A stretch of 64,000 bases of DNA. It comes from Hymenobacter monticola (GTDB taxonomy: Bacteria > Bacteroidota > Bacteroidia > Cytophagales > Hymenobacteraceae). Of this stretch, positions 321-56,628 are shown in pieces. The DNA is taken from contig NZ_CP094534.1 of assembly GCF_022811645.1 (NCBI RefSeq), positions 1,488,001-1,552,000 of the forward strand, given 5' to 3'. Both the position numbers and the translations under genes were made by a program. Position 1 is the stretch's first letter; every line of letters begins with the position of its first letter. Under the pieces are notes generated by a model. It had not been told where the DNA came from. It worked only from the letters and a program-made list of their open reading frames with translations, and ran no database searches.

Positions 321-400
321 CACGAGTACCCCGAAGCTCCTGCTTCGGTTCACGTCTGCATCGTTCTAAAAGCCGAAGCAGGGGCTTCGGGGTACTCGTG
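321..400. repeat. Family A palindromic element (copy A1) between convergent genes
   Basis: The arms at 321-348 and 373-400 are 28 bp inverted copies with one mismatch, separated by 24 bases. Each arm also contains a small hairpin (CCGAAGC, TCCT, GCTTCGG). The element fills almost the whole gap between the TPR gene stop (316) and the stop of the small minus-strand gene (401). A second full copy lies at 18820-18900 and a half copy at 40564-40600, all at convergent gene ends, so a role as bidirectional terminator or mRNA 3' stabiliser is inferred. Confidence 0.85.
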
Positions 401-514
401 CTACCCAAAAAACACGAACATGAGCGCCAAAACCAGAATGAACGTGCCGTACATCAGCGCATCGGTGCCGATGTATTGGCGGTATTTCTGGTAAAAATCT
501 TGCAGCTTGCGCAT
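401..514 (-). CDS. Very small single-span membrane protein (37 aa)
   Basis: The minus strand carries a 37-codon frame starting with ATG at 514 and ending in TAG at 401-403. The protein begins with a basic, aromatic segment (MRKLQDFYQKYRQYIG) and ends in one hydrophobic helix (GTFILVLALMFVFFG) that reaches the last residue, the layout of a tail-anchored micropeptide. The stop codon abuts the right arm of the A1 repeat exactly. No function is known to me. It could be a chance frame, but the clean amphipathic plus membrane pattern and the stop position next to the repeat favour a real gene. Confidence 0.6.
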   Translation of the reverse strand: MRKLQDFYQKYRQYIGTDALMYGTFILVLALMFVFFG

Positions 515-604
515 AGCGGGAGGGAGGGGCCGCCCCAAAGGTACGCCAAGGGGAAAGCGCCGGGGTTTGGTCGTACTTTTAGGACCATTTTGACGAAGTA
601 CCCG

Positions 605-2344
605 ATGCCCGTATCCGCGATTAAGCGGTGGAATTATATCCCCGAAACCGACCCGGCCCTGGCGCACCGCCTGGCGCAGTCCCTCTTCATTGCCCCCGAA
701 ATAGCCGCCCTGCTGGTGCAGCGCGGCCTCGACACGCCCGAAGCTGCCGCTGAGTTTTTCCATCCCGACCTGCGCCGCCTCCCCAATCCGCTGCTGATGC
801 GCGACATGGCCCGCGCCGTGGCCCGTTTGGTCAAAGCCCTGGAGGGCGGGGAAAAGGTGCTGGTGCTGGGCGACTACGACGTGGACGGCATTACCTCCGT
901 GGCCACGGTGATGAGCTACCTCACGCCCCTGTTTGGCGCCGAGCGGCTGCGCGACTACATCCCCGACCGCTACACCGAGGGCTACGGTATCTCTCAGAAG
1001 GCCATTGACTTTGCGGCCGATAATAGTTTCGGGCTGGTGGTGGCGCTCGATTGCGGCATCAAGGCCGTGGAGCAGGTAGCCTACGCCAGCAGCCGCGGCG
1101 TCGATTTCATCATCTGCGACCACCACTTGCCCGGCGAGGAGTTGCCCGCCGCCGTGGCCGTGCTCGACCCCAAGCGGGCCGATTGCCCGTACCCCTACAA
1201 AGAGCTGTCGGGTTGCGGCGTAGGCTTCAAGCTGATGCAGGCGCTGGGCGAGCACCTGGGTTTGCCCGTGGAGCCGCTGCACGATTTGCTGGATTTGGTG
1301 ACGGTGAGCATTGCGGCCGACATCGTGCCCATTACCGGCGAAAACCGCATTCTGGCCTCCTACGGCCTGCGCCGCTTCAACGAGGACATTGCCCTGCTGC
1401 GCCCCGGCCTGGCCGCCCTGCGCGAGCTGGCCACCCTGCGCGAGGGCCCATTGGGCATCAGTAGCCTGATATTCGGTTTTGCGCCCCGCATCAACGCCGC
1501 CGGCCGCATGGGCGACGCCCGCCGCGCCGTGGCCATGCTGCTGGCCCCCGACCAGCAGGAAGCCCGCTACACTGCCGAAGTGGTGGACCAAATGAACCAA
1601 CAGCGCCGCGGCTCCGACCAGCACACCACCCAGGAGGCGCTGGACATGATTGCCGGCGACCCGCTGCTGCAAAACGCCCGCGCCACCGTGCTTTACAAGG
1701 CCGACTGGCACCAGGGGGTGCTTGGCATCGTGGCCTCACGCTGCCTCGACCAATACTACCGGCCCACCGTCATCCTGACGCAGCGCGACGGCAAGGCCAC
1801 CGGCTCGGCTCGCTCCGTAGCTGGGTTTGATGTACACGAGGCCCTAGAAGCCTGCGCGCCGCTGCTCGACCAGTTTGGCGGGCACCGCGCCGCCGCCGGC
1901 CTCACGCTGAAGGTGGAAAACGTGCCCGCTTTCCAGCGCCGCTTCGAGGAAGTGGTGGCCGATACCCTGACCACCGAGCACCTGGTGCGGCCCGTGGAAG
2001 TGGCCGCCGTGCTGCCCATCGGCCGCATCACCGAAGAATTCTTTGCCGAGCTGCGCCGCATGGAGCCCTTCGGCCCCGGAAACCCCAACCCGGTGTTTGC
2101 CTCGCAGCGTCTCATTGCCGTGCCCCACAGCGCCCGTGTGGTGGGGCAGGGCCACCTCAAGCTGCGCCTGGCCTCGGCCGATACTCAGGGCCCAGCCGTG
2201 GACGCCATTGGCTTCGGCTTGGCCGACTACCTGCCGCAGATTGAGGAAGGCCAGCCCTTCAGTGCCTGCTACACGGTGGAGCTGAACGAGTACCGCGGCC
2301 AGCGCGCCGTGCAGCTGCGCCTGCTGGACGTGCGTTGGGAGTAG
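605..2344 (+). CDS. recJ: Single-stranded-DNA-specific exonuclease RecJ
   Basis: RecJ degrades single-stranded DNA 5' to 3' in RecFOR recombination, mismatch repair and base excision repair in the cytoplasm. The 579-residue product has the DHH phosphoesterase motifs LGDYDVDG (about 88-95), ALDCGI (147-152) and CDHHLPGEE (DHH at 172-174), followed by the DHHA1 region with FGGHRAAAGL near residue 425 and the C-terminal OB-fold segment. The metal-binding aspartates and histidines are all present and the length is normal for the family. An upstream in-frame extension to 317 exists but it lies over the A1 repeat and the small gene; family alignment supports ATG at 605 (MPVSAIKRWNYIPE). Confidence 0.95.
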   Translation: MPVSAIKRWNYIPETDPALAHRLAQSLFIAPEIAALLVQRGLDTPEAAAEFFHPDLRRLPNPLLMRDMARAVARLVKALEGGEKVLVLGDYDVDGITSVATVMSYLTPLFGAERLRDYIPDRYTEGYGISQKAIDFAADNSFGLVVALDCGIKAVEQVAYASSRGVDFIICDHHLPGEELPAAVAVLDPKRADCPYPYKELSGCGVGFKLMQALGEHLGLPVEPLHDLLDLVTVSIAADIVPITGENRILASYGLRRFNEDIALLRPGLAALRELATLREGPLGISSLIFGFAPRINAAGRMGDARRAVAMLLAPDQQEARYTAEVVDQMNQQRRGSDQHTTQEALDMIAGDPLLQNARATVLYKADWHQGVLGIVASRCLDQYYRPTVILTQRDGKATGSARSVAGFDVHEALEACAPLLDQFGGHRAAAGLTLKVENVPAFQRRFEEVVADTLTTEHLVRPVEVAAVLPIGRITEEFFAELRRMEPFGPGNPNPVFASQRLIAVPHSARVVGQGHLKLRLASADTQGPAVDAIGFGLADYLPQIEEGQPFSACYTVELNEYRGQRAVQLRLLDVRWE

Positions 2345-2351
2345 TTTGAAG

Positions 2352-2436
2352 GGTTGAGTTTTGAGGGTTGAATGTTGAGTTAAAAAAGTCGCAAACTGAT
2401 TTTCTCAACTCAACATTCAACCCTCAAAACTCAACC
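2352..2436. repeat. Family E inverted repeat with C-free arm
   Basis: Perfect 30 bp arms at 2352-2381 and 2407-2436 are separated by 25 bases. The left arm contains no C at all and is built of GTTGA-like words, which is striking in this GC-rich genome. The element lies between the convergent ends of recJ (stop 2344) and the DoxX gene. Its right arm overlaps the last codon and the TGA stop of the DoxX gene (2431-2433). Confidence 0.85.
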
Positions 2437-2790
2437 TTTCATCACCTTCCACACCCACCACAGCAGCGGCAGCTGCAAGGGCAGTCGGCCCCAGGCCGCC
2501 CAGCCGGGAATGCCCAGCTTTTCGTGAATCAGGGCCATGTACACATTGGCTGGAAATACCGCTACCAGCAAGGCCAGCAAGCCCCAGCCCGCCAGGCGGC
2601 GCGTCGGCTTTAACAGTAAACCAATACCGCCCAGAATTTCGAAAAAACCACTCACGTACACCAACGCGGGCGGCTGTGGAAACTGGGGCGGCATGATGGC
2701 CAGGTAAGTGGCGGGGTGCACAAAGTGCCAAAGGCCGGCCAGCACAAAAAGCAAGGCCAGCGCATAGCGGCTGAGCAGGCGAAGGAACAT
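2431..2790 (-). CDS. DoxX-like integral membrane protein
   Basis: A 119-residue protein with four predicted membrane helices: SRYALALLFVLAGLWHF, VYVSGFFEILGGIGLLL, LAGWGLLALLVAVFPANVY and a C-terminal WGRLPLQLPLLWWVW segment. The pattern AGLWHFVHP...YVSGFFEILGGIGLLL...FPANVYMAL is typical of small DoxX/DoxD-like proteins, whose biochemical role is poorly defined (quinone or thiosulfate related in some members). ATG at 2790 is chosen because it begins directly before the first helix; a longer frame to 2958 adds sequence unlike the family. Its TGA lies inside the right arm of the family E repeat. Confidence 0.8.
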   Translation of the reverse strand: MFLRLLSRYALALLFVLAGLWHFVHPATYLAIMPPQFPQPPALVYVSGFFEILGGIGLLLKPTRRLAGWGLLALLVAVFPANVYMALIHEKLGIPGWAAWGRLPLQLPLLWWVWKVMKG

Positions 2791-2922
2791 AGAGCCGCAA
2801 AAGTGCGCCAGGAAAGTTGCCCCGAAGCTGTAGCGGTTTATACTGAAAATGCAGTTGGGTGCTAGAATCTTTTGCCCCGTTTTGGTTGTCGTAGGAAAGG
2901 TCGGATGCCTCTGCGGACCGCC

Positions 2923-2952
2923 TTGCCTAACGCCCGTTAGGGCGTACTTTTG
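2923..2952 (+). promoter_or_regulatory. Bacteroidota-type promoter for the acyl-CoA dehydrogenase gene
   Basis: TTG at 2923-2925 and TACTTTTG at 2945-2952 are separated by 19 bases, matching the TTG / TAnnTTTG promoter of this phylum. The ATG at 2983 lies 30 bases downstream. This also argues against the alternative start at 2950, which falls inside the -7 element. Confidence 0.7.
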
Positions 2953-2982
2953 TGCCAACTAATAAACTTTCCCACCACACCC

Positions 2983-4143
2983 ATGCAAACCGCCACATCC
3001 TCTAGTATTTACCAACTTACCGAAGAACAACTGGCCGTGCGCGACGCCGCCCGCGACTTTGCCCAGAGTGAGCTGTGGGCCGGCGTAATTGAGCGCGACG
3101 AGCACCAGAAATTCCCCGCCGAGCAAATCAAGAAGATGGGCGAGTTGGGTTTCATGGGCATGATGGTGAGCCCCGAGTACGGCGGTTCGGGCCTCGATAC
3201 CGTGAGCTACGTGCTGGCCATGGAGGAAATCTCGAAGGTTGACGCCTCGTGCTCCGTGATTATGAGCGTGAACAACTCGCTGGTGTGCTGGGGCCTGGAG
3301 AAATACGGCACCGAGGAACAGAAGCGCAAGTACCTGCCGCGCCTGTGCTCGGGCGAAATCATCGGCGCCTTCGCTCTGAGCGAGCCCGAAGCCGGCTCCG
3401 ACGCCACCAGCCAGCGCACCACCGCCGAAGACAAAGGCGACCATTACCTGCTGAACGGCACCAAAAACTGGATTACCAACGGCACCACCGCTTCGGTTTA
3501 CCTCGTCATCGCCCAAACCAACCCCGAGCTGAAGTCGCGCGGCATCAACGTCCTCATCGTGGACAAGGACATGCCGGGCTTCGTGCAGGGCCCGAAAGAG
3601 AACAAGCTCGGCATCCGCGGCTCCGACACCTGCTCGCTGATGTTCACCGACGTGAAAGTGCCCAAGGAAAACCGCATCGGCGAAGACGGCTTCGGCTTCA
3701 AATTCGCCATGCAGGTACTGGCCGGCGGCCGCATCGGCATCGCCTCGCAGGCCTTGGGCATTGCATCCGGCTCGCTCGAACTGAGCTTGAAGTACGCCAA
3801 GGAGCGGAAGGCTTTCGGCGTGGAAATCGCCAAGCACCAGGCCATCCAGTTCAAGCTGGCCGACATGGCCACCAACGTGGATGCTGCCCGCCTGCTCTGC
3901 CTGCAAGCGGCTGCCGATAAAGACGCCGGCAACGACTACGGCAAGTCGGGTGCCATGGCCAAGCTCTTCGCTTCGAAGGTGGCTATGGAAGCGGCCGTGG
4001 AGGCCGTGCAGATTCACGGCGGCTACGGCTTCGTGAAGGAATACCACGTGGAACGCTTCATGCGCGACGCCAAAATTACCCAGATTTACGAGGGTACTTC
4101 GGAAATTCAGAAAATTGTGATTTCGCGGGATATCCTCAAATAA
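2983..4143 (+). CDS. Acyl-CoA dehydrogenase (short/medium chain, butyryl-CoA dehydrogenase type)
   Basis: FAD-dependent dehydrogenase for the first step of beta-oxidation, converting acyl-CoA to trans-2-enoyl-CoA and passing electrons to ETF. The 386-residue product contains signature 1 (GAFALSEPEAGSD), the flavin-contacting WITNG segment, the QIHGGYGFVKEYHVERFMRD signature 2, and the C-terminal QIYEGTSEIQ, whose glutamate is the catalytic base in short-chain enzymes. Length and all motifs are normal. Chain-length preference cannot be read from sequence alone. It is a single-gene unit with its own promoter at 2923-2952 and a strong terminator just downstream. Confidence 0.93.
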   Translation: MQTATSSSIYQLTEEQLAVRDAARDFAQSELWAGVIERDEHQKFPAEQIKKMGELGFMGMMVSPEYGGSGLDTVSYVLAMEEISKVDASCSVIMSVNNSLVCWGLEKYGTEEQKRKYLPRLCSGEIIGAFALSEPEAGSDATSQRTTAEDKGDHYLLNGTKNWITNGTTASVYLVIAQTNPELKSRGINVLIVDKDMPGFVQGPKENKLGIRGSDTCSLMFTDVKVPKENRIGEDGFGFKFAMQVLAGGRIGIASQALGIASGSLELSLKYAKERKAFGVEIAKHQAIQFKLADMATNVDAARLLCLQAAADKDAGNDYGKSGAMAKLFASKVAMEAAVEAVQIHGGYGFVKEYHVERFMRDAKITQIYEGTSEIQKIVISRDILK

Positions 4144-4177
4144 GGCGCGAATTGCCTAAAATTCAGATTCATTGCAC

Positions 4178-4207
4178 AAAACCCAGCCACTTTTTGGCTG
4201 GGTTTTT
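4178..4207 (+). terminator. Rho-independent terminator of the acyl-CoA dehydrogenase gene
   Basis: A 12 bp perfect stem (4178-4189 with 4195-4206, core ACCCAGCCA) and a five-base loop are followed by a T-rich tract. The gap 4208-4301 beyond it is AT-rich and holds the upstream region of the next gene. Confidence 0.85.
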
Positions 4208-4301
4208 AGTTTTTGTGAATTTCAAGGTGTTATATTGCACTGCGATTTGTACCTATCCATGTAGGTCGCATTTATAAACCGCCTTTTTGGCATCTTGAAT
4301 T

Positions 4302-5228: not shown

Positions 5229-5249
5229 ATCACCCTATTGATAGCAACG

Positions 5250-5286
5250 AAAAAGCCCCGCTTCACATATGAGGCGGGGCTTTTTT
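5250..5286. terminator. Bidirectional rho-independent terminator
   Basis: AAAAAGCCCCGC (5250-5261) pairs with GCGGGGCTTTTT (5274-5285). A-tract and T-tract on both sides let it serve the AraC gene on the plus strand and the converging gene at 5303-6136 on the minus strand. Confidence 0.88.
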
Positions 5287-5302
5287 GTCTATTTAACGCA
5301 GG

Positions 5303-7026: not shown

Positions 7027-7743
7027 ATGAAAAATACGATTCTGTATTGCCTCGCCGCTGGCTCCCTTGCTCTCTCCTTCTTCTTTGAACGCGCCCCCGA
7101 TGCTTCGGCAACGGCCCGTGCCACGGCGGCACCGGTCGTAGCCGAAGCATCGATGCTTCCGGCCCTGACGATGGACGAGCCCACCCTGGTAGCCCCCGCC
7201 GGCGATGGCGACCCAATCGCAAAGCCCACCGCCGCCGAACTGGCCGCCTCGCGCGACTCGCTGGCCTACCACTACTACGCCCAAACGCTGGGCCTGCACT
7301 TGGCTTTCAACGAGAACAAGGACCTGCTCCGCACCGTAACCGATTGGATTGGGGCGCCTTATTCGTACGGCAGCAATTCGCGCCGCGGCACCGACTGCTC
7401 GGGTTTCGTGACCCGCGTATTCCGTGAAGTGTACGGCATCAACCTGATTCACTCCTCGCGCGCCATGTTCAGCACCACCAAGCGCGTGGCCAAGAGTGAG
7501 ATGGAAACCGGCGACTTGGTGTTTTTCCGTCGGGGCAAGGGCCCGATTTACCACGTGGGCATCTACCTGAAAGACGGCAAGTTTGCCCACTCGGCCACCA
7601 ACGGCGGCGTGATGGTTAGCTCGCTAAACCAGCCTTATTACCACCGCAACTTCTACGCTGCCGGCCGCGTGCGCGCCGCCAAAGCCGCCGACGAAGCGCT
7701 GGTAGCAGCTGCTGCCGTAGCGGCCGCACCTACCGAGGAATAA
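7027..7743 (+). CDS. NlpC/P60-family cell-wall hydrolase
   Basis: A secreted or periplasmic cysteine peptidase expected to cut gamma-D-glutamyl-diamino-acid bonds in peptidoglycan stems. The 238-residue protein starts with a signal peptide (MKNTILYCLAAGSLALSFFF), then an Ala/Pro/Thr-rich linker, then the catalytic domain from about residue 97. The catalytic Cys lies in RRGTDCSGFV, the His in YHVGIYLKDGKFAHSA, and the third polar residue in the strand that follows. The C-terminal Ala-rich tail is short and without a binding domain. The ATG at 7027 is directly before the signal peptide. A strong terminator closes the unit. Confidence 0.88.
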   Translation: MKNTILYCLAAGSLALSFFFERAPDASATARATAAPVVAEASMLPALTMDEPTLVAPAGDGDPIAKPTAAELAASRDSLAYHYYAQTLGLHLAFNENKDLLRTVTDWIGAPYSYGSNSRRGTDCSGFVTRVFREVYGINLIHSSRAMFSTTKRVAKSEMETGDLVFFRRGKGPIYHVGIYLKDGKFAHSATNGGVMVSSLNQPYYHRNFYAAGRVRAAKAADEALVAAAAVAAAPTEE

Positions 7744-9722: not shown

Positions 9723-9887
9723 TGTCATTGCGAGGAGGCACGACGAAGCAATCCGTCCTGTCAAAACCAGACACGCTCTTTCGTGACAAAGCCCAATCCG
9801 GAAACGGTGGGCAGATACTTCATCACTTCTTAAAAGTGTCTGAGTGCTAGAGGACGGATTGCTTCGTCGTGCCTCCTCGCAATGACA
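9723..9887. repeat. Family C inverted repeat between DUF1800 and DUF1501 genes
   Basis: Perfect 37 bp arms at 9723-9759 and 9851-9887 flank a 91-base centre. Within each arm ATTGC and GCAAT can pair, so the arms can fold as two small hairpins or as one large one. It splits two genes that would otherwise form an operon: the right arm ends 10 bases before the DUF1501 start. Confidence 0.9.
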
Positions 9888-14087: not shown

Positions 14088-16523
14088 TTATTGTCCCTTA
14101 AGTGCCCAAGACGTGGCCACGCGCGGGTTGGCCTCGTGCACATTTTTCAGGAATACCAGTTCGTCGAGCTGACCCACGCGCCAGGTTTCCATCATACTGT
14201 TGTAGAACGGCGAGCCAGGGTTGCCGCTCTGCCCGCCGGGGTACACGCCGTAGGCGCGCAGCTGCGGGCCCAGCTCCACCACCATGCGCCAGCTGGGGCC
14301 CGTGCGCTCGGTGGTGGCATTCACGATGCCCGCGCCGCCGCCGCAGTCCACGTCCATCACCCCGAAGCCGGGGAGCTTGAGCAGGTGCAGCACGTCGGTG
14401 CTTTTCTGGGCGGCCCAGCGCCATTTGTCGCTCTGCGGGCCGTATTTGCGGGTGAGGCTGTCCACGGCCCAGCGCAGGCTTTGGCGGGCCAGCAGGGGCA
14501 GGGTTTCGCGGGCGCGGGTGCGGCGGTCGTCAATCCAGCGGCTGCTGTCTTCTTTCAGAATCAGGGTGTTGGTGCGGTCGCGGGCGGGGTAGCGGTAGGC
14601 GGGGCCTTTGGGGTCGAGGGGAAAGTCATCGTCCCAGAGGCGCTTCACCAGGTTGTCGTACCACAGCTCAAACAAGCTCGGCCCGATGGCTCCGGCCGCG
14701 TAGTGGTAGTTCCAGACCTGTAGTGAGGCCAGGGCCCGGCCCTCGGGCGAGGAGGGCGGCAGCGTGCCGGCCAGGGCCAGCATGCGCGGCAGCATGAGTT
14801 GTGCGTTCAGGCCCAGGTCGTCGTTCTGAAGTAGGCGCAGGCTGTCGGCCGTGGCGCGGGGCATCCGGCCCAGGCGCTGGTTGATGCGAAGGCCCCGCTC
14901 CGACGAGCCGTAGTCCCAGTTCAGGTAATACGGGTAGTCTTCGGGCCGCACCGACGACTGGTTGGCCGACGACACGAAGTCCCGCGCTGGGTTCTTCACG
15001 TGCGGGTTCTGGGCAGCCGGAATCCAGCCCTGCCACTCCTGCGCTGGGTCGCGCCCGTCGAGCAGGTACTTGCCCTGCTCGCGCCATTTCAGCGGGAAGC
15101 GGCCATTGGGCCACAGGGCAATATCCTGGGCCGTGTTCGCAAAAACAAAGTTCTGCGCCGGGGCGCCGTAGCTGGCCAGCGCCGCGGTATAGTCGGCGTA
15201 GGAGCGGGCGCGGTTGAGGCGGTAAAAGGTCAGGAACTCGTTGGCCGCGTCGTGGGCCGTCCAGCGGGCGGCGTAGCCGATGGGCGTCTGGGCCATGAAG
15301 GGCGTCTGCGGCCGCTCATACACCACCGGGCCGTGGTGGGTGTAGAGCACAGTATCGAGCCGGTCGGCCTGCCCGCGCACCTTAATGCGCTCCACCACGC
15401 GGCGCACCGGCTTCCACTGGCCCGCGTGCCAGTACTCGCGCCGCCGGGCGTCCCGAAACTGAATCTGGTACCAGTCCAGCACGTCGGCGTAGGTGTTGGT
15501 CACGCCCCAGGCGGCCTGCTCGTTGAAGCCGATGATGGCCGTGGGCGTGCCGGGAATGCTCACGCCGTACACGTTCACGCCCGGCGCGGCCAGCTGCACC
15601 TGGTACCAGATGCTGGGCAGGTTCAGCTGCAAATGCGGGTCGTTGGCCAGGATGGGGAAGCCCGTGGCCGAGCGGGCGCCGCTCACCGCGAAGTTGTTGG
15701 AACCCAGCTCCCGGTCGGGCTCCTGATTGGGCGTGTAGGGCGCTTCGGCCGCCGCGAAAGCGGGCGGTACGGGCGGCACGGCCAGCGGCTGGAAATCGAG
15801 CGGCGTGCCGGCTGGCACCACCGGCGACTCCCGGGTGGGGTAGTCCGGAAACAGGTCGCGCATCACCGCCGGGCCGTACTTGCGCAGGGCGTTGCTCATG
15901 CGCAGGTCGTCGGAGCGGCCCGTCAGGTCGAAGGCCATGTACTTCAGGATGAGGGCGCTTTTCAGCGGCTCCCAAGGCTCGGGCGCGTAGTCGAGTAGCT
16001 TGTATTCGAACGGGTAGGTGGCCGGCGTGAGGCTGTTGACGTAGGCATTTACGCCCTCGGAATAGGCCCGCACCACGGGGCCACTCACCGGGTCGGCCAG
16101 GGCCGCAGCGGTTGATTTTTGCGCCCCGAAGCCCAGGCCCATGCGCCGGAAAAACCGGTCGGTTTCGAGCCGCTCCGGCCCCACGATTTCGGCCAGCCGC
16201 CCGGCCGCCACGTGGGCCACAAAATCCATCTGCCAGAGCCGGTCGCGGGCCGTGAGGTAGCCCTGAGCGTAGTACAGGTCGTGGTCGTTTTGGGCGAAGA
16301 CGTGCGGCACGCGGTGGTCGTCGTAGCGCACGGTCACGGGGAACTGCAGGCCGGGCAGGGCCAGCGTTTGCTGCGCCGGGAAATCGCCGGCCTTCTCACC
16401 GTTTTGCCAAAAGCCGCGGTAGGGGCTCAGCAGCTTGCCGAGCGGCGGCAGGTTGCCGTGCTTGGTATTCAGCGCCCACACGAGCGCGAGGCTGGCAACC
16501 AAGGCCAACAGGGCTTTAATCAT
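14088..16523 (-). CDS. Penicillin acylase family protein (peptidase S45, Ntn hydrolase)
   Basis: 811 residues, the normal size for this family of self-processing amidases that hydrolyse penicillins, N-acyl-homoserine lactones or other acyl amides. The N-terminus has a signal or anchor helix (MIKALLALVASLALVWAL). The expected cleavage site and nucleophile are in RELGSNNFAV, giving Ser275 as the new N-terminus of the beta chain. Other family segments are RYDDHRVPHVFAQND, GYLTARDRLWQMDF, ANDPHLQLNLPSIWYQV and IIGFNEQAAWGVTNT. The natural substrate cannot be told from sequence. The ATG coincides with the end of a 146 bp inverted repeat. Confidence 0.9.
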   Translation of the reverse strand: MIKALLALVASLALVWALNTKHGNLPPLGKLLSPYRGFWQNGEKAGDFPAQQTLALPGLQFPVTVRYDDHRVPHVFAQNDHDLYYAQGYLTARDRLWQMDFVAHVAAGRLAEIVGPERLETDRFFRRMGLGFGAQKSTAAALADPVSGPVVRAYSEGVNAYVNSLTPATYPFEYKLLDYAPEPWEPLKSALILKYMAFDLTGRSDDLRMSNALRKYGPAVMRDLFPDYPTRESPVVPAGTPLDFQPLAVPPVPPAFAAAEAPYTPNQEPDRELGSNNFAVSGARSATGFPILANDPHLQLNLPSIWYQVQLAAPGVNVYGVSIPGTPTAIIGFNEQAAWGVTNTYADVLDWYQIQFRDARRREYWHAGQWKPVRRVVERIKVRGQADRLDTVLYTHHGPVVYERPQTPFMAQTPIGYAARWTAHDAANEFLTFYRLNRARSYADYTAALASYGAPAQNFVFANTAQDIALWPNGRFPLKWREQGKYLLDGRDPAQEWQGWIPAAQNPHVKNPARDFVSSANQSSVRPEDYPYYLNWDYGSSERGLRINQRLGRMPRATADSLRLLQNDDLGLNAQLMLPRMLALAGTLPPSSPEGRALASLQVWNYHYAAGAIGPSLFELWYDNLVKRLWDDDFPLDPKGPAYRYPARDRTNTLILKEDSSRWIDDRRTRARETLPLLARQSLRWAVDSLTRKYGPQSDKWRWAAQKSTDVLHLLKLPGFGVMDVDCGGGAGIVNATTERTGPSWRMVVELGPQLRAYGVYPGGQSGNPGSPFYNSMMETWRVGQLDELVFLKNVHEANPRVATSWALKGQ

Positions 16524-16666
16524 TTAACAATTAACATTTATCATTTAACAAGTCGCCCAGAAGGCGCAGGTAGCAAGAAGCAGCAATTAACAACAATGCC
16601 AGCAACTACCCGCACACCAGCGCCACCTGGGCGACTTGTTAAATGATAAATGTTAATTGTTAAATG
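16521..16666. repeat. Family F inverted repeat with G-free arm
   Basis: Perfect 40 bp arms at 16521-16560 and 16627-16666. The first 31 bases of the left arm contain no G and consist of TTAAC/CATTT words, very unlike the surrounding GC-rich genes. The left arm starts with the CAT that is the start codon of the acylase gene; the right arm ends four bases from the stop of the RlpA gene. The element fills the whole junction. Confidence 0.9.
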
Positions 16667-16670
16667 AAAC

Positions 16671-18819: not shown

Positions 18820-18900
18820 CGTGTACCCCGATGCTCCCGCTTCGGCCCGTATGAACGATTGATGTTCAAGCGGGCCGAAGCGGGAGCATCGGGGTACACG
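18820..18900. repeat. Family A palindromic element (copy A2) between convergent genes
   Basis: Perfect 30 bp arms at 18820-18849 and 18871-18900 enclose 21 bases that contain a further TGAAC/GTTCA dyad. The arm CGTGTACCCCGATGCTCCCG is closely related to the A1 arm at 321-348. It fills the gap between the convergent DUF72 stop (18817) and GDSL esterase stop (18906). Confidence 0.9.
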
Positions 18901-19975: not shown

Positions 19976-20080
19976 CAATGAGTGAATGAGCGAATGGCTG
20001 AATAGGGTGAATGAATCAGGCGCGTAGAATGAAGAGTGAAAATCATTCACCCATTCACTCCTTCGCCGATTCACTCATTG
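19976..20080. repeat. Family H imperfect inverted repeat built of GAATG words
   Basis: The left part 19976-20017 and right part 20041-20080 are imperfect inverse copies. Both consist of repeated (A/G)TGAATG-like words, with one strand poor in C. It separates the DUF4286 start (19970) from the stop of the DUF6526 gene (20083). Confidence 0.65.
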
Positions 20081-25169: not shown

Positions 25170-25178
25170 GGCCGAAAT

Positions 25179-25251
25179 GTAGCGCGGACTTTTAGTCCGC
25201 GAAGCCAACGGCATTTATGATTTACCACTCGCGGACTAAAGTCCGCGCTAC
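25179..25251. repeat. Family D inverted repeat (copy D2)
   Basis: Arms at 25179-25202 and 25229-25251 match except for one extra T on the left (GTAGCGCGGACTTT). Each arm is itself a hairpin (GCGGACT...AGTCCGC). The right arm contains the TAG stop of the cation transporter gene (25248-25250), and the left arm supplies the TA of a possible -7 box of the MFS gene. Confidence 0.88.
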
Positions 25252-26198
25252 TGATGCACCGCTGCCACTGCTTCTTCGCAGCCGCTGTGACAGCCGCCGG
25301 GCAGCGCGCCATCCTCCACCTGCACGGTGCTGTGGTGGATGTGAAACTCGGTTTCGAGCCCTTTGGTGAGGGCACCGAGCCAGGCGGCATCGGCGCCGCC
25401 GGGGCGCACGAGGTGGGCCATGAGGGCGGCGTCGTGGCCGGAGCTGCTGAGGCTCCAGATGTGCAGGTCGTGCACGGACTCGACCTGGGGCTGGGCCAGC
25501 AGCCAGGCGCGCACCGCGGCGGGGTCAATGCCGTCGGGCACGGCTTGCAGTCCCAGGCGCAGGCTGTCGCGCAGCAGGCCCCACGAGCTGTAGGCGATGA
25601 TGCCCAGGATGATAAAGCCGATGAGCGGGTCGAGCCAGGCCCAGCCGGTGAGCAGCACGAGGCCACCGCCGGCCACCACGCCCACGCTCACCAGCGCATC
25701 GGTGAGCATGTGCAGGTAGGCGCCGCGCACGTTCACATCGCCCTTCTGCCCACTACGGAAAAGCAGGGCCGTGACGCCGTTGACAAGGATGCCGATGCCG
25801 GCCAGCGCCATCACCCAACGGCCGTTCACGGGTTCGGGGTGGCGCAGGTGGTCGATGGTTTCCCAGAGGATGAAGCCGAGCGCGGCATAGAGCAGAGCGG
25901 TGTTGAGCAGCGCCGCCTGAATGGTGGCCCCACGGTAGCCAAAGGTGTAGCGCTGCGTGGCGGGACGACCCGCCAGCCAGGCGGCGCCCCAGGCCAGGGC
26001 CAGGCTGAGCACGTCGCTCAGGTTGTGGCCGGCGTCGGAGAGCAGGGCGGCCGAGTTGGCCCAGAAGCCACCAATAGCTTCGGCTATTACGAAGGCCAGG
26101 TTAAGGCCGATGCCGATGGCAAAAGCCGCGCTAAAGGCGCCCCCGGCGGGCGGGGCGGCGTGCTGGTGGCCAGCGTGGTCGGAATGAGAGTGGGGCAT
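25248..26198 (-). CDS. Cation diffusion facilitator family transporter
   Basis: A 316-residue proton antiporter expected to export Zn2+, Co2+ or Cd2+ from the cytoplasm. A His-rich N-terminus (MPHSHSDHAGHQHAA) precedes six membrane helices. The metal site residues are in helix 2 (LLSDAGHNLSDVL, HxxxD) and helix 5 (YLHMLTDALVSVG, HxxxD), the HD-HD pattern of Zn-CDF members. The cytoplasmic C-terminal domain carries VHDLHIWSLSSSGHDAALMAH and a final Cys/His cluster GGCHSGCEE. It is upstream of and in the same direction as the MFS gene, but the D2 repeat lies between them. Confidence 0.9.
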   Translation of the reverse strand: MPHSHSDHAGHQHAAPPAGGAFSAAFAIGIGLNLAFVIAEAIGGFWANSAALLSDAGHNLSDVLSLALAWGAAWLAGRPATQRYTFGYRGATIQAALLNTALLYAALGFILWETIDHLRHPEPVNGRWVMALAGIGILVNGVTALLFRSGQKGDVNVRGAYLHMLTDALVSVGVVAGGGLVLLTGWAWLDPLIGFIILGIIAYSSWGLLRDSLRLGLQAVPDGIDPAAVRAWLLAQPQVESVHDLHIWSLSSSGHDAALMAHLVRPGGADAAWLGALTKGLETEFHIHHSTVQVEDGALPGGCHSGCEEAVAAVHQ

Positions 26199-40563: not shown

Positions 40564-40600
40564 GAACGTGTACCGCGAAGCTCCGCTTCGCCTCGCGTTG
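40564..40600. repeat. Half copy of a family A element (A3)
   Basis: Directly after the htpG stop, GAACGTGTACCGCGAAGCTC continues with CGCTTCG and is related to the left arms of A1 and A2. The right arm is missing and replaced by the htpG terminator. It is again between convergent genes. Confidence 0.6.
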
Positions 40601-49969: not shown

Positions 49970-49974
49970 CTGCT

Positions 49975-50731: not shown

Positions 50732-50834
50732 CGGTCATGCTGCGCGCAGCCGAAGCATCTCGCGTGCGGTAGTAATCCAATTGACAGGGTTTACTATTGC
50801 ACGCGGAATGCTTCGGCTGCGCGCAGCATGACCG
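50732..50834. repeat. Family B inverted repeat (copy B2)
   Basis: Arms of 36 bp at 50732-50767 and 50799-50834 differ at two positions. The core TGCTGCGCGCAGCCGAAGCA contains the palindrome GCTGCGCGCAGC. It is related to B1 at 19555-19645. It lies between the lptB stop and the start of the GH3 gene. Confidence 0.88.
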
Positions 50835-52407: not shown

Positions 52408-52559
52408 GGTTCGTAAGTGGCTATTGCTTAGCCTCAACCGGAGTTAGTGGAATAAAAAAAGGCGTTTATCAGCAGCAAGCACATTTTTCAGAAAATTCCA
52501 AATCAACGAATTAGCGGAATTCAAGGATATGATGTAATATTACCTTAATATTCCTGCTT

Positions 52560-52769
52560 ATGCCCGCACTCGCCCGTATTCCCGCAGACCGCAAATCGGC
52601 CTATAAACGGCCTTACAAAACCCGTAGCCAACGCCGTGAGCGCGACCGACGCAAGCACGACGAGAACAACGACTACAAGTTTTTATTGCGCGTTGGCCTG
52701 GCCATTGGGGCTTTGATTGTAGTGGCCGTAATATGTGCAGTGCAAGGCATGAGCGAGCCGACCATCTAG
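52560..52769 (+). CDS. Small basic membrane protein (69 aa)
   Basis: The N-terminal 37 residues are strongly basic (SAYKRPYKTRSQRRERDRRK), then comes one hydrophobic helix (FLLRVGLAIGALIVVAVICA) and a short tail. The layout suggests a cytoplasmic positive N-terminus and one membrane span. No family recognised. It has an AT-rich upstream region 52408-52559 with no ORF, which fits its own promoter. It lies convergent with the gene at 52803-53600. Confidence 0.65.
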   Translation: MPALARIPADRKSAYKRPYKTRSQRRERDRRKHDENNDYKFLLRVGLAIGALIVVAVICAVQGMSEPTI

Positions 52770-52802
52770 GCGGGAACACGGCGCCGGCCTGAAGCCGCGG
52801 CC

Positions 52803-53600
52803 TTACTCGTCGAGCATACTGCCAATCAGGCCGCCGCCGAGCAGCCCGCCCAGCACCGAGCCGCTTTCCTTCTGCGCATTGCCGCCGGAAGGAGCCAGCG
52901 CCTGAATCAACTTTTTAACGGGCATCGATTGGAGCCACACGCGGCCGGTGCCGCGCAAGGTGGCCAGCAACAGGCCCTCGCCGCCGAATATCATCGACTT
53001 GAGGCCGCCGGCCCGGGCCACGCTGAAATCAATGCCGGGCTCGAAGGCCACCACGCAGCCCGTGTCCACGCGCAGCATGTCGTTGTTGAGCCGTTTTTCG
53101 ATGATGGTGCCGCCGGCGTGCACGAAGGCCTTGCCGTCGCCGGTAAGGCGCTGCAGGATGAAGCCCTCGCCGCCAAACAGGCCAGCCCCGAGTTTTTGGT
53201 TGAAGTGCAGGCTGATTTTGGTGCCGCGGGCCGCGGCCAGGAAGCCGTCTTTCTGCACGATGAGGCCCGTAGGCATGTCGCCCAGGTTGATGGGAATGAT
53301 GGTGCCCGGGTAGGGCGCCGAGAACGCCACCCGGCTTTTGCCGTAGCCGCCGCGGTGCGTGAAGTGCGTCAGAAACAACGACTCGCCGGTGATGAGGCGG
53401 GTGCCGGCCGAAAACAGCTTGCCCATGAAGCCCTGCTCGGGCTCGGAACCGTCGCCCATCTTGGTTTCGAAAGCGATGCCTTCCTCCATGTACACCATGG
53501 CTCCGGCTTCGGCAATGACGGTTTCGTTGGGGTCCAGCTCAATTTCCAGAACCTGGATATCGGACCCGAGAATGCGGTAATCGACGTCGTGGGAATGCAT
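52803..53600 (-). CDS. AIM24 / TIGR00266 family protein
   Basis: 265 residues from ATG at 53600. It has the TIGR00266 pattern: [40 protein letters not shown], the glycine-rich [51 protein letters not shown] and [13 protein letters not shown], ending in [20 protein letters not shown]. The fold is a beta-helix-like tryptophan-RNA-binding-attenuator fold repeat; the job is unknown in bacteria, while the mitochondrial AIM24 relative supports inner membrane organisation. TATCTTTG at 53628-53635 (minus strand) is a -7 box 27 bases before the start. Confidence 0.87.
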
Positions 53601-53697
53601 GGCGCAGAAAGAAAAGGTTGATGCAGCCAAAGATAGGAGCGGGCCCGAAGCGGTGCCGAAAAAACTTCTGGCCGAGAGCAACAATATTTTAGGCTGC

Positions 53698-53728
53698 TTG
53701 CGTTAACGAAGTGTTTCAACTAAATTTA
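53698..53728 (+). promoter_or_regulatory. Probable promoter of the MORN-repeat lipoprotein gene
   Basis: TTG (53698-53700), 20 bases, TAAATTTA (53721-53728), seven of eight positions of TAnnTTTG. The ATG is 25 bases downstream. Confidence 0.5.
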
Positions 53729-53753
53729 TAGTTAAACTTAACGCTCTCTGCTC

Positions 53754-54362
53754 ATGCGCCTTTCCCGCTATCTGCTTCTATGCTGCCTGACGGCACTTCT
53801 AGGTGCTTGTGCCAGCTCAAAGCCTTCTTCCCAGGCCGGCCGGCGCGGCTTCTGGCGCCCCAACCATTTCGACCGTCACGGCCTGGAAAACGGCCGCTGG
53901 CGCACTTACTACGACGATTATAAGAAGCAGCCTTTCACCACAGGGCGCTACCGCCACGGCCGACCCGTGCGCACCTTCAACTACTACAACCCCACGGGCC
54001 AGCTCGACCGCACCGAGCAATACCAAAAAGACGGGCTCTGCGAGGTAACCTATTGGCACCCCGATGGCCAAGTGGCCCGCAAAGGTTCGGCCCAGTGGGT
54101 AACCGGCAAAGGCCGGGCCCCGCGCTTCTTCTGGTACGGCACCTGGACGAGCTACAACCCCACCGGCCAGGTGACTGACGTACAAACATATAACGACGGC
54201 ACCATCACGCGGGCCGAGAAGTATAAGGACGGCCAGCTCACCCAGGTCGACGTCTACGAAGGCAACAAAACCACGCGCACCGAAACCTACCAGAACGGCC
54301 AGCTGATACGGGTCGAAACCTTCGAAAAAGGTCTGCGCACCGGCAACACTCAAACGCTGTAA
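53754..54362 (+). CDS. Lipoprotein with MORN-like (YwqK-type) repeats
   Basis: 202 residues. Lipoprotein leader LLLCCLTALLGACASSKPSS (Cys about 19). The body is a row of about 23-residue MORN_2-type repeats with the pattern Y..G....R...Y...G: NGRWRTYYDD, GRPVRTFNYYNPTGQLDRTE, VTYWHPDGQVARKG, GTWTSYNPTGQVTDVQTY and TETYQNGQLIRVETFEKG. Proteins of this class are often named toxin-antitoxin YwqK antitoxins, but here the lipoprotein leader and lack of a toxin gene speak against that role. Probable outer-membrane or periplasmic protein with unknown function. Confidence 0.82.
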   Translation: MRLSRYLLLCCLTALLGACASSKPSSQAGRRGFWRPNHFDRHGLENGRWRTYYDDYKKQPFTTGRYRHGRPVRTFNYYNPTGQLDRTEQYQKDGLCEVTYWHPDGQVARKGSAQWVTGKGRAPRFFWYGTWTSYNPTGQVTDVQTYNDGTITRAEKYKDGQLTQVDVYEGNKTTRTETYQNGQLIRVETFEKGLRTGNTQTL

Positions 54363-54372
54363 TCCGAGCGGA

Positions 54373-54768
54373 CTACTCGTCGTCCGGCAGCTCGCTGCGA
54401 GTTTCGGCCACTTCTTTGTCGGGGTCTTCTACCGATTTTTTGCGCTTGGCCTCGCGGCTCGTGCGGCGCATGAAGTCCTCGTCCGATTCTTCGGGTTCGG
54501 GGTTGTGCTCGGCGTCGGCAATGGGGAAGGCCTCATCTTCCAGTTCTTCGGGTGTGGGCTTTTCGCCAAACTGGCCGGCGCGGTCCACCAGTTTTTTGTC
54601 GCGCACGTGGCGGCCCAGAAACTGGTTGATTTGCTCGATGCTGTAGTTGGAGGTGATTTCGCCCAGCGGGTTCACGCCAATCTCGAAGCCCTCCAGCTCT
54701 TTGTGGACGCGGGCTTTCTTGTCGGGGTCGGCAGCGGTTTTCTTGGGCTTGACGGGTTTCTTGGCCAT
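54373..54768 (-). CDS. Acidic conserved protein of unknown function (131 aa)
   Basis: Basic start (MAKKPVKPKKTAADPDKKAR), then a short folded segment (LEGFEIGVNPLGEITSNYSI, EQINQFLGRHVRDKKLVD) and a long acidic, probably disordered tail (PEPEESDEDFMRR). No membrane segment or known catalytic motif. A conserved core around ITSNYSIEQINQFL is seen in Bacteroidota proteins as far as I recall, without known function. It is convergent with the MORN-repeat gene, ten bases apart, and stands upstream of nothing in an obvious operon. Confidence 0.72.
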   Translation of the reverse strand: MAKKPVKPKKTAADPDKKARVHKELEGFEIGVNPLGEITSNYSIEQINQFLGRHVRDKKLVDRAGQFGEKPTPEELEDEAFPIADAEHNPEPEESDEDFMRRTSREAKRKKSVEDPDKEVAETRSELPDDE

Positions 54769-54837
54769 AACGAAAAGAATTGGGCAGATGCTATTGCCTG
54801 CTTTACGCGAATTCGCCCGATTGGGTAAAATCCCCAC

Positions 54838-54865
54838 AAAAAAAGGCGGACCCATCGGTCCGCCT
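54838..54865 (-). terminator. Terminator of gltX
   Basis: On the minus strand AGGCGGACC (54865-54857) pairs with GGTCCGCCT (54852-54844) and is followed by seven T. Confidence 0.9.
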
Positions 54866-54924
54866 TCTCTGTGCCCACCGGGGCAAAATTGCATCTGGTA
54901 AGTCTCCGAAGAAACCTGCCGCAG

Positions 54925-56481
54925 CTACGCCGCCACGGGCAGTCGCTCCACGGCCTTGCGCAGCCGCTCGGCCACCTCGCCCGAGCCCAGGATGGCCAGG
55001 GTTTCGAACAGGTCGGGGCCGGCGGCGGCGCCGGTCACGGCCACGCGCAGGGCCTGCAACACCTGGCCGGGCTTCATGCCCTGGGCCTCCACGGTTTGGT
55101 TGAAGATGCTTTTCAGCACTTCGGCGTTGGCGCTGGGCTCCGAGTTGGCGGGCAGGCCGTCGGCGTAAGCCGTGAGGGCGGCGGCCACCTGGGCGTTCCA
55201 CTTCTTGCTGATGACGGCCTCGTCGTACTCCGTGGGGGCCTGGAAGAAGTACTTGGCCTCCTGCCAGAAGTCGTTGGGGAAGCTCACGCGCTCCTTCATC
55301 ACGCCCACAATTTGCTCGGCTTTCTCCGGCAAGCAATCAATGCCGTGCTCCTGCAGGGCCGTGAGCAGGTAGGGCGCCAGTTCGGCGTTGGGCTTGGCGC
55401 GCAGGTAGTGCTCGTTGAACCACTTCACCTTGTTCTGGTCGAACTTGGCCGGCGACTTGCTCACGCGCTCAATGGAGAAGGCCTGAATCAGCTCGTCCAT
55501 CGAGAAAATCTCCTGCTGCGTGCCGGGGTTCCAGCCCAGGAAGGCCAGGAAGTTCACCAGCGCCTCGGGCAGGTAGCCGTCTTCGCGGTAGCCGCGGCTC
55601 ACGGTGGGCTCGCCGGTTTCGCCGTCGATGCCGTGCCACTCCAGCGGAAACACCGGGAAGCCCAGGCGGTCGCCGTCGCGCTTGCTGAGCTTGCCGGTGC
55701 CGTCGGGCTTGAGCAGCAGGGGCAGGTGGGCAAACTGCGGCATGGTCTTCTCCCAGCCCAGGTAGCGGTAGAGCAGCACGTGCAGCGGCGCCGAGGGCAG
55801 CCACTCCTCGCCCCGGATGACGTGCGAGATTTCCATCAAATGGTCGTCCACGATGTTGGCCAGGTGGTAGGTCGGCATGCCGTCCGACTTCATCAGCACC
55901 TTGTCATCGATGGCCGAAGAGTGCACCACCACCCAGCCGCGAATCAAGTCCTGAAAGCGTACTTCCTCCTTGCGGGGCACTTTCAGGCGAATTACGTAGG
56001 GCGCGCCGCTGTCGAGCAGCTGCTTCACCTCGTCTTCGGGCAGGGTGAGGGAGTTGCGCATCTGGGCACGGGTGATGCTGTTGTACTGCGGGTTGGGCAC
56101 CTTGGCGGCCTGCAGGCGGGCGCGCATGGCGTCCAGCTCCTCGGCCGTATCGAAGGCGTAGTAGGCAAAGCCGTCGGCAATGAGCTGGTCGGCGTACTGC
56201 TTGTACATGGGCTTGCGCTCGCTCTGCTTGTACGGGCCGTGGGGGCCGCCCACGCCTTGCCCTTCGTCAATCACGATGCCGCACCAGGCCAGGGCTTCGA
56301 GGATGTACTCCTCGGCGCCGGGCACGAAGCGGTTTTGGTCGGTGTCTTCGATGCGCAGCAGCATCTTGCCGCCCAGCTTGCGGGCCAGCAGGTAGTTGTA
56401 CAGGGCCGTGCGCACGCCGCCAATGTGCAGCGGGCCGGTGGGGGAAGGCGCGAAACGCACCCGAACTTCTCTTTCAGCCAT
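54925..56481 (-). CDS. gltX: Glutamate--tRNA ligase
   Basis: 518-residue class I aminoacyl-tRNA synthetase charging tRNA-Glu in the cytoplasm. HIGH motif FAPSPTGPLHIGGVRTALYN (about 9-28), RIEDTDQNRFVPGAEEYI, the KMSKS motif as KLSKRDGDRLGF (about 245-256), and an anticodon-binding helical domain at the C-terminus with ALLNFLAFLGW-like ALVNFLAFLGWNPG. The start at 56481 (MAEREVRVRFAPSPTG) is the family start; an extension to 56535 is not used. A rho-independent terminator follows. Confidence 0.95.
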   Translation of the reverse strand: MAEREVRVRFAPSPTGPLHIGGVRTALYNYLLARKLGGKMLLRIEDTDQNRFVPGAEEYILEALAWCGIVIDEGQGVGGPHGPYKQSERKPMYKQYADQLIADGFAYYAFDTAEELDAMRARLQAAKVPNPQYNSITRAQMRNSLTLPEDEVKQLLDSGAPYVIRLKVPRKEEVRFQDLIRGWVVVHSSAIDDKVLMKSDGMPTYHLANIVDDHLMEISHVIRGEEWLPSAPLHVLLYRYLGWEKTMPQFAHLPLLLKPDGTGKLSKRDGDRLGFPVFPLEWHGIDGETGEPTVSRGYREDGYLPEALVNFLAFLGWNPGTQQEIFSMDELIQAFSIERVSKSPAKFDQNKVKWFNEHYLRAKPNAELAPYLLTALQEHGIDCLPEKAEQIVGVMKERVSFPNDFWQEAKYFFQAPTEYDEAVISKKWNAQVAAALTAYADGLPANSEPSANAEVLKSIFNQTVEAQGMKPGQVLQALRVAVTGAAAGPDLFETLAILGSGEVAERLRKAVERLPVAA

Positions 56482-56540
56482 AACAAATGAAAAGCGCGCC
56501 CCGAGGTTCGGAACGCGCTGCAAAGGTAAGGACATGAACT

Positions 56541-56628
56541 GTAGCGAGGACGCTGCGAGTCCGTGCCTAGGTCAAGGCGAAAGTGTCGATGGGGCTGGCG
56601 AGTCAGGGGCTCGCTGCCCCCACGCTAC
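56541..56628. repeat. Degenerate family D inverted repeat (copy D3)
   Basis: The left arm from 56541 (GTAGCGAGGACGCTGCGAG) and the right arm ending at 56628 are recognisably inverse but differ at several positions. The end GTAGCG is shared with D1 and D2. It lies between gltX and the erythromycin-esterase-like gene, whose TGA begins one base after its right end. Confidence 0.6.

Follow-up and report, generated by a model that had tools for sequence, protein, structure and literature searches.

MITEs are short non-autonomous elements that share their inverted ends with a gene-bearing parent, and the STRRs of cyanobacteria are heptamer direct repeats. Genes for four-helix proteins occur beside short repeats and DUF559 genes beside CCTCTCC palindromes, two associations that were tested here. 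In REP/REPIN (BIME) elements with RAYT/TnpA_REP genes, 5'-tagged hairpin arms form intergenic, multicopy inverted dimers, and such arms also flank the cognate gene. For CGTC repeats, the available part of a 2013 survey reports that no dedicated or associated transposase gene was found, and leaves open how they spread (Di Nocera et al. 2013, PMC3733652). The accessible text on the 23S rRNA intervening sequence (IVS) of Coxiella describes an S23p/four-helix open reading frame between terminal inverted repeats, with tandem heptamers ahead of it (PMC4990558). Direct repeats of the TAACTGA heptamer occur in Beggiatoaceae, Cyanobacteria and five Bacteroidetes, with no transmission mechanism evident in the excerpted report (MacGregor 2015, PMC4679880).

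We analyzed a window of 64,000 nucleotides from the genome of Hymenobacter monticola (G000; G011, G019, G022 and G024 are other genomes, and L numbers are loci). A preliminary description of the window had read its intergenic palindromes as one family-rich system of small mobile or self-copied elements (REP/MITE-like). The REP/MITE-like character is supported by our data, but the palindromes do not make up a single system: there are three or more classes linked to genes, and RAYTs accompany just one of these. All the classes to which the 13 window elements belong resemble mobile DNA and also have longer members, in which arms of the same kind enclose a gene. Seven elements have GTAG- or GTACC-tagged arms (class 1), three have CGTC- or TGTC-tagged arms (class 2), and three have arms of degenerate 7-base repeats, one of them with period 8 (class 3). 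We estimate a probability of roughly 70% that three or more parallel kinds of small inverted dimer exist, each with its own gene family in the full-length copies, and that the palindromes of the window are their non-autonomous, gene-less versions. GTAG/GTACC arms would have RAYT (HUH/Y1 transposase) as partner and CGTC/TGTC arms a GIY-YIG nuclease of ~93 aa; the partner of heptamer-repeat arms would be a four-helix-bundle 23S_rRNA_IVP protein. The elements are as follows, with a strand assigned to the half copy only:

320..401: family A inverted dimer with GTACC tag, class 1 (inverted-repeat search I8); the same arms flank RAYT L001
18819..18901: family A inverted dimer, class 1; cognate RAYT L001
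40564..40600, + strand: family A half copy, class 1; same type as L012:3464-3604
25178..25252: dimer of the GTAGCGCGGAC family, class 1; a related family flanks RAYT L003
56541..56628: decayed GTAGCG(T/A)GGAC dimer, class 1; family of RAYT L003
45288..45377: GTAGCGCGAACTTTGTAGTTCGCG dimer, class 1 (inverted-repeat search I9); the same arms flank RAYT L004
42586..42692: GTAGGGGCGGGGC dimer, class 1 by its GTAG tag; arms at none of the four RAYTs, and at least six other near-full-length copies in G000
9723..9887: TGTCATTGCGAG...GCAATCC dimer, class 2 (CGTC type); arms of this type flank a decayed GIY-YIG gene in L059/L077
19551..19649: CGTCATGCTGAGCGCAGCCGAAGCATCTC dimer, class 2; 152 arms genome-wide
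50732..50834: GGTCATGCTGCGCGCAGCCGAAGCATCTC dimer, class 2 (inverted-repeat search); the tag reads GGTC
2347..2441: heptamer-armed palindrome, class 3; best lag 7, identity 0.64
16520..16667: heptamer-armed palindrome (TTAACAA units), class 3; best lag 7, identity 0.76; same arms in L014:4285-4410
19976..20080: palindrome with period-8 arms, tentatively class 3; period-7 arms at the orthologous sites in G019 and G022

These palindromes proved to be real, intergenic and multicopy. Ten of the 12 elements first described are present among the inverted repeats listed for the window (25 of 32). The element at 25179-25251 is a true inverted pair, with arm lengths one base apart, and that at 56541-56628 is a decayed copy, whose left arm fits the GTAGCG(T/A)GGAC family with at most five mismatches and whose right end retains the outer bases only; the half copy reported at 40564 does belong to family A. 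Inverted repeats with a score of at least 18 numbered 73 in 464 kb of G000 and 0 in one dinucleotide-preserving shuffle. Over 839 kb of G000 we counted 138 inverted repeats, or one per 6.1 kb, a density that is somewhat too high because 9 of the 40 stretches sampled were picked for RAYT genes or close CGTC pairs. Thirty-five of the 138 were classed as 'other' and are mostly terminator-like hairpins with short centers, two of them (window 50732 and L018:14813) being CGTC copies. The arms recur, as the preliminary description had supposed: family B has 152 and family C 49 arms genome-wide (0 in reversed-pattern controls), and the 839 kb contain 20 arms of family A, 14 of D1, 23 of D2 and 14 of E. 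The layout is indeed common to all: the CGTC, GTAG, GTACC and heptamer classes have median element lengths between 86 and 100 bp, in a search that capped centers at 150 bp. The inverted repeats at 5247, 11490 and 31667 were put aside as terminator-like or unclassified, and the one at 7098-7152 is identical in both relatives compared (G024 and G019) and was treated as non-mobile. We discarded the identity of own versus other arms as evidence, since the elements were selected for complementarity, which biases the comparison.

Class 1 is the known REP/RAYT kind, except that the tag of family A is GTACC instead of GTAG, the tag of the D and E families. As had been stated, the window contains no RAYT: the PF01797 profile finds none there and four elsewhere in G000. 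All four RAYT (Y1_Tnp) genes lie between GTAG/GTACC-tagged arms, three exceed the NF047646 cut-off, and three are flanked by window families or close kin; arms of family E are absent around all four RAYTs of G000. Within the 839 kb, the class 1 arms that lie in inverted pairs are 16 of 20 for family A, 14 of 14 for D1, 20 of 23 for D2, 14 of 14 for E and 2 of 3 for D3.

Classes 2 and 3 differ from REP/REPIN elements in their tags or arms, and their partner genes are unrelated. Class 2 elements have a C/TGTC tag, with GGTC at window 50732 as the exception, a short stem starting with AT or AC, and head-to-head dimers; 32 of 38 family B arms and 12 of 22 family C arms are in inverted pairs. The tag, the AT-starting stem, the head-to-head dimers and the occurrence in several phyla are shared with the CGTC-tagged REPs, whereas those have no transposase gene in the available part of the survey (PMC3733652) and here the arms enclose a GIY-YIG gene. 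This is a nuclease gene and not a known transposase. Both stand-alone GIY-YIG genes of G000 are within a CGTC/TGTC arm pair, and neither of its two long GIY-YIG proteins is (L076 and L078 score 9, which is background). Among 30 GIY-YIG loci of the genus, one of them from G000 (L112), the inverted match between upstream and downstream sequence was at least 12 in 30, at least 14 in 29 and at least 20 in 25, compared to 47, 9 and 0 of 600 random places; of 120 displaced places in the GIY-YIG and four-helix loci, 9 reached 12 and 0 reached 14. The association extends to many phyla, where a CGTC-type hairpin lies within 300 bp of 65 of 80 GIY-YIG loci and of 8 of 136 displaced control places, and outward-tagged hairpins lie on both sides of 31 of 80 and 0 of 136, respectively. 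The other 15 of the 80 loci have no match to the CGTC scanner, which is strict: among the 30 genus loci it detects any hairpin at 10 and flanking hairpins at both ends at six, and it does the latter at six of the 11 plasmid loci. From plasmid records we chose 11 of 34 for GIY-YIG, 10 of 24 for four-helix and 9 of 49 for DUF559 genes; eight of the 11 GIY-YIG loci have arms on both sides and three do not. The median dN/dS of the GIY-YIG genes, two of the 30 being left out, is 0.12, with dS of ~1.5, close to saturation, in both dN/dS sets (0.12 and 0.30).

All three four-helix-bundle (23S_rRNA_IVP) genes of G000 have heptamer arms beside or around them. In L080 and L081 the gene lies between paired inverted arms, and in L079 paired arms lie upstream and heptamers were seen by eye downstream; the class 3 elements of the window have no gene. 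Compared with the rRNA intervening sequences, as far as described in the accessible text (PMC4990558), most elements here lie between protein genes, some are gene-less and many phyla are involved. Intergenic 7-base units are shared with the STRRs and the TAACTGA repeats, but the latter are direct repeats in the excerpted report (PMC4679880), and here inverted arms of degenerate heptamers surround a four-helix gene. The inverted match at the genus loci is at least 12 in 30 of 30 and at least 14 in 26 of 30, and at all 10 plasmid-record loci the gene lies between inverted arms. In two wider sets, 17 of 28 loci (30 before one at a contig edge and one shortened locus were dropped) and 16 of 30 reached 14, compared to 1 of 114 displaced places, with nearly half of the loci below this value. 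Across three sets, arm identity is 0.58-0.69 at lag 7 and 0.59-0.72 at lag 14, and at most 0.35 at other lags. Heptamer arms are also present at cyanobacterial and other homologs, including one from Azospirillum (L162) that lies inside 23S/LSU rRNA with the same kind of arms. The window elements are not inside 23S rRNA: they are intergenic, and an Rfam search of the window returned no match and no rRNA.

The GIY-YIG domain is a domain of homing-type nucleases, and the GIY-YIG and four-helix genes may instead be passengers, that is, small selfish genes inserted into or captured by palindromes that spread otherwise, through RAYT in trans or template switching during replication. In accordance with this, CGTC arms also enclose ordinary genes in L055-L058 and L074. 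However, each of these ordinary genes is bordered by two independent palindromes, one on either side (in L057 the second is imperfect). For this reason we rejected as mobilizers the SDR, aldo-keto reductase, LytTR regulator and other ordinary genes that are enclosed by neighboring CGTC arms. The GIY-YIG gene of L075, in contrast, replaces the center of one dimer. Furthermore, GIY-YIG protein identity and arm similarity covary (r = 0.39, and 0.33 for differently labeled hosts; 0 of 1,000 permutations, Mantel test on those 41 of the 80 loci whose arm score is at least 14, together with nine of the 30 genus loci picked by hand). The CGTC scanner also gave zero matches within 300 bp of four-helix and RAYT loci, a result that, given how strict this scanner is, supports specificity weakly. 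Overall, we regard passenger genes as an unlikely explanation.

Less probable still, and indeed very doubtful, is that the palindromes serve the host as terminators or RNA-stability elements and are under selection, with arms kept complementary by compensatory change and the enclosed genes incidental. Their position would fit such a role: as the preliminary description held, none is inside a gene (13 of 13 intergenic on a GC-frame gene map permitting overlaps of up to 35 bases, which assigns 15% of the window to intergenic sequence), and those at 18820, 19976 and 56541 occupy the gap to within five bases on either side. Relatives also carry palindromes of different sequence at the same sites. 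A host role is at odds, however, with near-identical copies at many unrelated places, with the class-specific genes between arms, and with the orientation of the flanking genes, which is co-directional for nine elements, convergent for three and divergent for one. It is also at odds with orthologous gaps that lack a palindrome. Empty junctions, proposed earlier as a check, were found at five of 11 sites, in seven of 32 comparisons of a site with a relative; orthologous sites in relatives are either empty or occupied by other palindromes. Neither E1 nor the half copy at 40564 has joinable flanks in G024, G019 or G022. Among the gene-bearing elements, that of L075 (423 bp) is represented in G011 by 36 bp, a stretch that could be what is left of an element and not a virgin site. 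The four-helix element of L080 gave no informative comparison of this kind: of 19 loci, two contain both of its flanks, at 67-71% identity, and in G011 the flanks are on different contigs. Since some flank is similar in 153 of 378 GIY-YIG pairs and 114 of 435 four-helix pairs, the spread has been partly vertical. Finally, it is highly improbable that the four RAYTs move all classes, with GTAG/GTACC as one of several accepted tags. RAYTs, the only classical transposases searched for, do share the genome, but the arms around each RAYT are GTAG/GTACC with no CGTC scanner match within 300 bp, and GIY-YIG genes accompany CGTC arms in many phyla.

Gene-less copies of parallel, gene-linked dimers remain our preferred reading. 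Genes are found within arms, their gene-less relatives are multicopy, orthologous sites differ in presence, and the arrangement recurs across phyla; arms and genes are associated, and we infer that the genes mobilize the elements. The encoded protein would recognize the folded arms, as hairpin or cruciform with the tag unpaired, and drive copying or insertion, and the gene-less copies would be mobilized in trans. GIY-YIG might cleave at the folded arm in a structure-specific manner, with copying during the subsequent repair. We know of no catalytic activity in the four-helix family, whose protein may have an accessory nucleic-acid-binding role beside a separate catalytic partner. The layout may be shared because the elements converged on dimers able to fold within a single strand. 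As in MITEs, short non-autonomous elements here have the inverted ends of a gene-bearing parent; unlike in MITEs, the partners of classes 2 and 3 are to our knowledge not known as transposases, and neither a target-site duplication nor the precise point of insertion was clear at the junctions inspected.

A fourth palindrome class, with DUF559 genes, is present elsewhere in G000. We give even odds to four parallel, convergent palindrome systems across phyla: RAYT; GIY-YIG (CGTC); four-helix IVP with heptamer arms, of which the rRNA intervening sequences would be a special case; and a DUF559 endonuclease with CCTCACCCC/CCCCTCTCC palindromes. If true, proteins not recognized as transposases would drive the mobile elements of three of the four systems. 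Among the matches listed in the literature (titles and starts of abstracts, with subscription journals and preprints outside the scope), we found no link between GIY-YIG and CGTC repeats, between four-helix genes and heptamer palindromes, or between DUF559 and palindromes. These data suggest a role for three abundant and poorly explained families of small proteins (GIY-YIG, four-helix IVP and DUF559), and that an inverted dimer of ~90 bp is a convergent solution for intergenic spread in compact genomes. GIY-YIG is a candidate answer to how CGTC repeats spread, the question left open in the available part of the 2013 survey (PMC3733652), and with candidate partner genes the spread of both these repeats and the TAACTGA heptamers, as excerpted (PMC4679880), becomes testable at the bench.

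A scan for distant inverted repeats, which covered all such repeats with no family preselected, also listed four inverted pairs, at L047, L051, L060 and L071.

All twelve intergenic palindromes of the preliminary description are real. Ten of them appear in the list of inverted repeats for the window, which shows 25 of 32, the palindrome at 25179 is a genuine inverted pair whose arms differ in length by one base, and that at 56541 is an element of the kind claimed, but a decayed copy. Inverted repeats scoring at least 18 number 73 in 464 kb of real sequence, compared to none in one shuffle. The 13 elements (the twelve and a half copy) all lie between genes, as described, in our own GC-frame gene map, and three of them leave no more than 5 bases of the intergenic gap free on either side. 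Their arms recur across the 6.12-Mb genome of Hymenobacter monticola, in which the window spans C1:1488001-1552000 (152 family B and 49 family C arms, and none for reversed-pattern controls). In 839 kb of this genome, sampled as 40 stretches of which 9 were picked because they contain a RAYT gene or a close CGTC pair, we counted 20 arms of family A, 14 of D1, 23 of D2, 3 of D3 and 14 of E, mostly in inverted pairs. The whole 100-bp family E element has at least six more near-full-length copies among the genome matches listed, and others in relatives. The same 839 kb hold four members of a further palindrome family, of CCGGTC(G/C)GACCGCCCTAGGC type (for example, L010:6448-6542 and L017:14830-14923). 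Within each of two elements (L012:15511-15629 and L024:6035-6149) both arms share oddities absent from the family consensus, namely an inserted CATCTGGCGTC and CGTCCTGC replacing CGTCATGC, as would result from copying one arm onto the other.

The palindromes had been taken for small mobile or self-copied elements, and empty junctions do occur in relatives. We compared 11 of the 13 window sites in three relatives (G024, G019 and G022), for a total of 32 comparisons. Seven of these returned a short stretch (at most 59 bases) without any inverted repeat, and six a palindrome of another class, two of the latter being weak (scores 10 and 11). In the remaining comparisons, the site held either a longer stretch or a palindrome of the window's class, often with other arms.

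Window sites (named by family letter) with no palindrome, or one of another class, in a relative
A1: none in G019; another class in G024 and G022
A2: none in G019 and G022; another class in G024
B1: none in G022
C1: none in G019 and G022; another class in G024
D1: none in G022
D3: another class in G024 and G022

At window:16520-16667, the centre is common to G024 and G019 and shared in part with the window, and both arms have changed jointly (GTTGTCA-type heptamers in the two relatives, TTAACAA-type in the window). In contrast to the variable sites, an inverted repeat within or just ahead of an ORF (window:7098-7152, CGATGCTTCGG...) is apparently not mobile, because it is identical in both relatives compared, G024 and G019.

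Genes specific to each class of palindrome occupy the place of the dimer centre, and dimers that have arms of the same kind but no gene occur scattered through the genome. Class 1, with GTAG/GTACC-tagged arms, is a member of the already known REP/RAYT kind, and seven window elements were assigned to it by their tag. As described, the window hosts no Y1 transposase gene; a PF01797 search found four in the genome. All four match the REP-associated tyrosine transposase family NF047646 of NCBIfam, three over the cut-off and L003 under it (65.8 versus 80 bits). For family E (window:42586-42692, GTAGGGGCGGGGC family), a RAYT with its own arms is absent among these four.

Arms flanking the four RAYT genes
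L001: family A
L002: TAGTACC(A/C)CCAAGC
L003: GTAGCGTGGACTCTGCGAGTCCGCG
L004: GTAGCGCGAACTTTGTAGTTCGCG

The three CGTC/TGTC-tagged window elements (class 2) fit the CGTC repeats of Di Nocera et al. (2013; PMC3733652). Among the four PF01541 matches in the genome, inverted CGTC-type arms enclose both small stand-alone GIY-YIG genes and neither of the two in long frames. A decayed small GIY-YIG gene (L059) was found by inspecting the DNA between nearby CGTC arms. One of the two small stand-alone genes (L075) has 44-bp arms 335 bp apart, and its 423-bp element has a counterpart of 36 bp in G011, where the flanks are 88 and 92% identical.

A GIY-YIG match is present in 99 of 120 genomes of the genus. 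For the 30 genus loci returned by the search, including the H. monticola copy (L112), the highest-scoring inverted match of the upstream with the downstream flank reaches 12 in all 30, 14 in 29 and 20 in 25, compared to 47, 9 and 0 of 600 random places; places displaced from GIY-YIG and four-helix loci reach 12 in 9 of 120 and 14 in none. The median dN/dS of the gene is 0.12 (132 usable pairs, 28 genus genes, dS near saturation). We also scanned named genomes with the GIY-YIG protein alignment and analyzed the best 80 of 573 loci, one of them from Hymenobacter and the others hosted by Planctomycetota, Chloroflexi, Nitrospirae, Clostridia, candidate phyla and others. Among these best 80, arms score at least 14 in 41 (2 of 136 displaced places), a CGTC-type hairpin lies within 300 bp in 65 (8 of 136) and outward-tagged hairpins flank both sides in 31 (0 of 136). 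The tag-and-stem scanner behind the hairpin counts is strict; among the 30 genus loci, 10 have any hairpin by its criteria and 6 have one on each side. Of 11 loci in plasmid records, eight have two-sided CGTC arms by arm match or eye and three do not; the scanner finds both sides in six. Protein identity correlates with arm similarity (r = 0.39, 50 loci; 0 of 1,000 permutations), also between differently labelled hosts (r = 0.33). For this gene and the four-helix genes of class 3, part of the distribution is vertical. Throughout, the loci compared come from best-match lists rather than random samples.

Class 3 has degenerate-heptamer arms. The arm period is 7 in window elements 2347 and 16520 and 8 in the tentatively included 19976, where G019 and G022 carry period-7 arms. 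Three PF05635 (four-helix-bundle) genes occur in the genome. Inverted heptamer arms enclose L080 (41-bp arms, GGTATTCGGTTTTTGGTGTTGGG..., 389 bp apart) and L081, and L079 has a heptamer palindrome upstream and, by eye, heptamers of the complementary kind downstream. A gene-less palindrome is built of the L080 arm unit (L014:3477-3595). Four-helix matches occur in 99 of 120 genus genomes; in the 30 loci returned by the search, arms score at least 12 in all and at least 14 in 26, with arm identity of 0.69 at lag 7, 0.72 at lag 14 and at most 0.35 at other lags. Heptamer arms are also present at each of the 10 plasmid-record loci fetched, which come from seven cyanobacterial genera, Gemmatirosa and Azospirillum; the two weakest score 14.5 and 15. 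Two wider sets reach 14 in 17 of 28 and 16 of 30 loci (control, 1 of 114). The Azospirillum locus L162 lies inside LSU rRNA and is therefore a 23S rRNA intervening sequence. Since the Coxiella intervening sequence is reported to combine a terminal stem of 28 bp with an S23p ORF preceded by tandem GACAGAT heptamers (PMC4990558), we take rRNA intervening sequences as a special case of class 3. Four other four-helix elements (L153, L155, L156 and L160) lie between associated genes: those for ribonucleotide reductase subunits, cas6/cas4 (in two cyanobacteria), and cas10 with a Cmr3-family gene.

As has been proposed for RAYTs and REPs, the partner protein would act on the arms in their folded state and would also move, in trans, the copies that lack a gene. 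Nucleases of the GIY-YIG type are hydrolytic, homing and structure-specific ones among them, and cut-and-repair copying would for this reason be our preferred guess for class 2. The L079 protein weakly matches Avd, the accessory protein of diversity-generating retroelements (E = 1.3e-4, below cut-off), which suggests that members of the four-helix family are more likely to be helpers of another enzyme. The shared layout of about 90 bp would be convergence between classes.

The distant inverted repeats collected from 1.2 Mb included elements with a RAYT, GIY-YIG or four-helix gene, cases in which separate palindromes flank an ordinary gene, and four pairs left without explanation. They also included one outside the window, at L017:763-1475, where CCCCCCGGCCCCCTCTCCC arms enclose a gene for a DUF559 (VSR-like) endonuclease (PF04480, E = 2e-35), a fourth class with nine palindromes in the 839 kb. 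By eye, C-rich palindromes flank its homologues on both sides in seven of nine plasmid records fetched and on one side in two. The same operon gap, between sufB and sufC, is used by two palindrome classes: a GIY-YIG element in Azospirillum lipoferum (L151) and a DUF559 element in Sphingomonas parapaucimobilis (L345).
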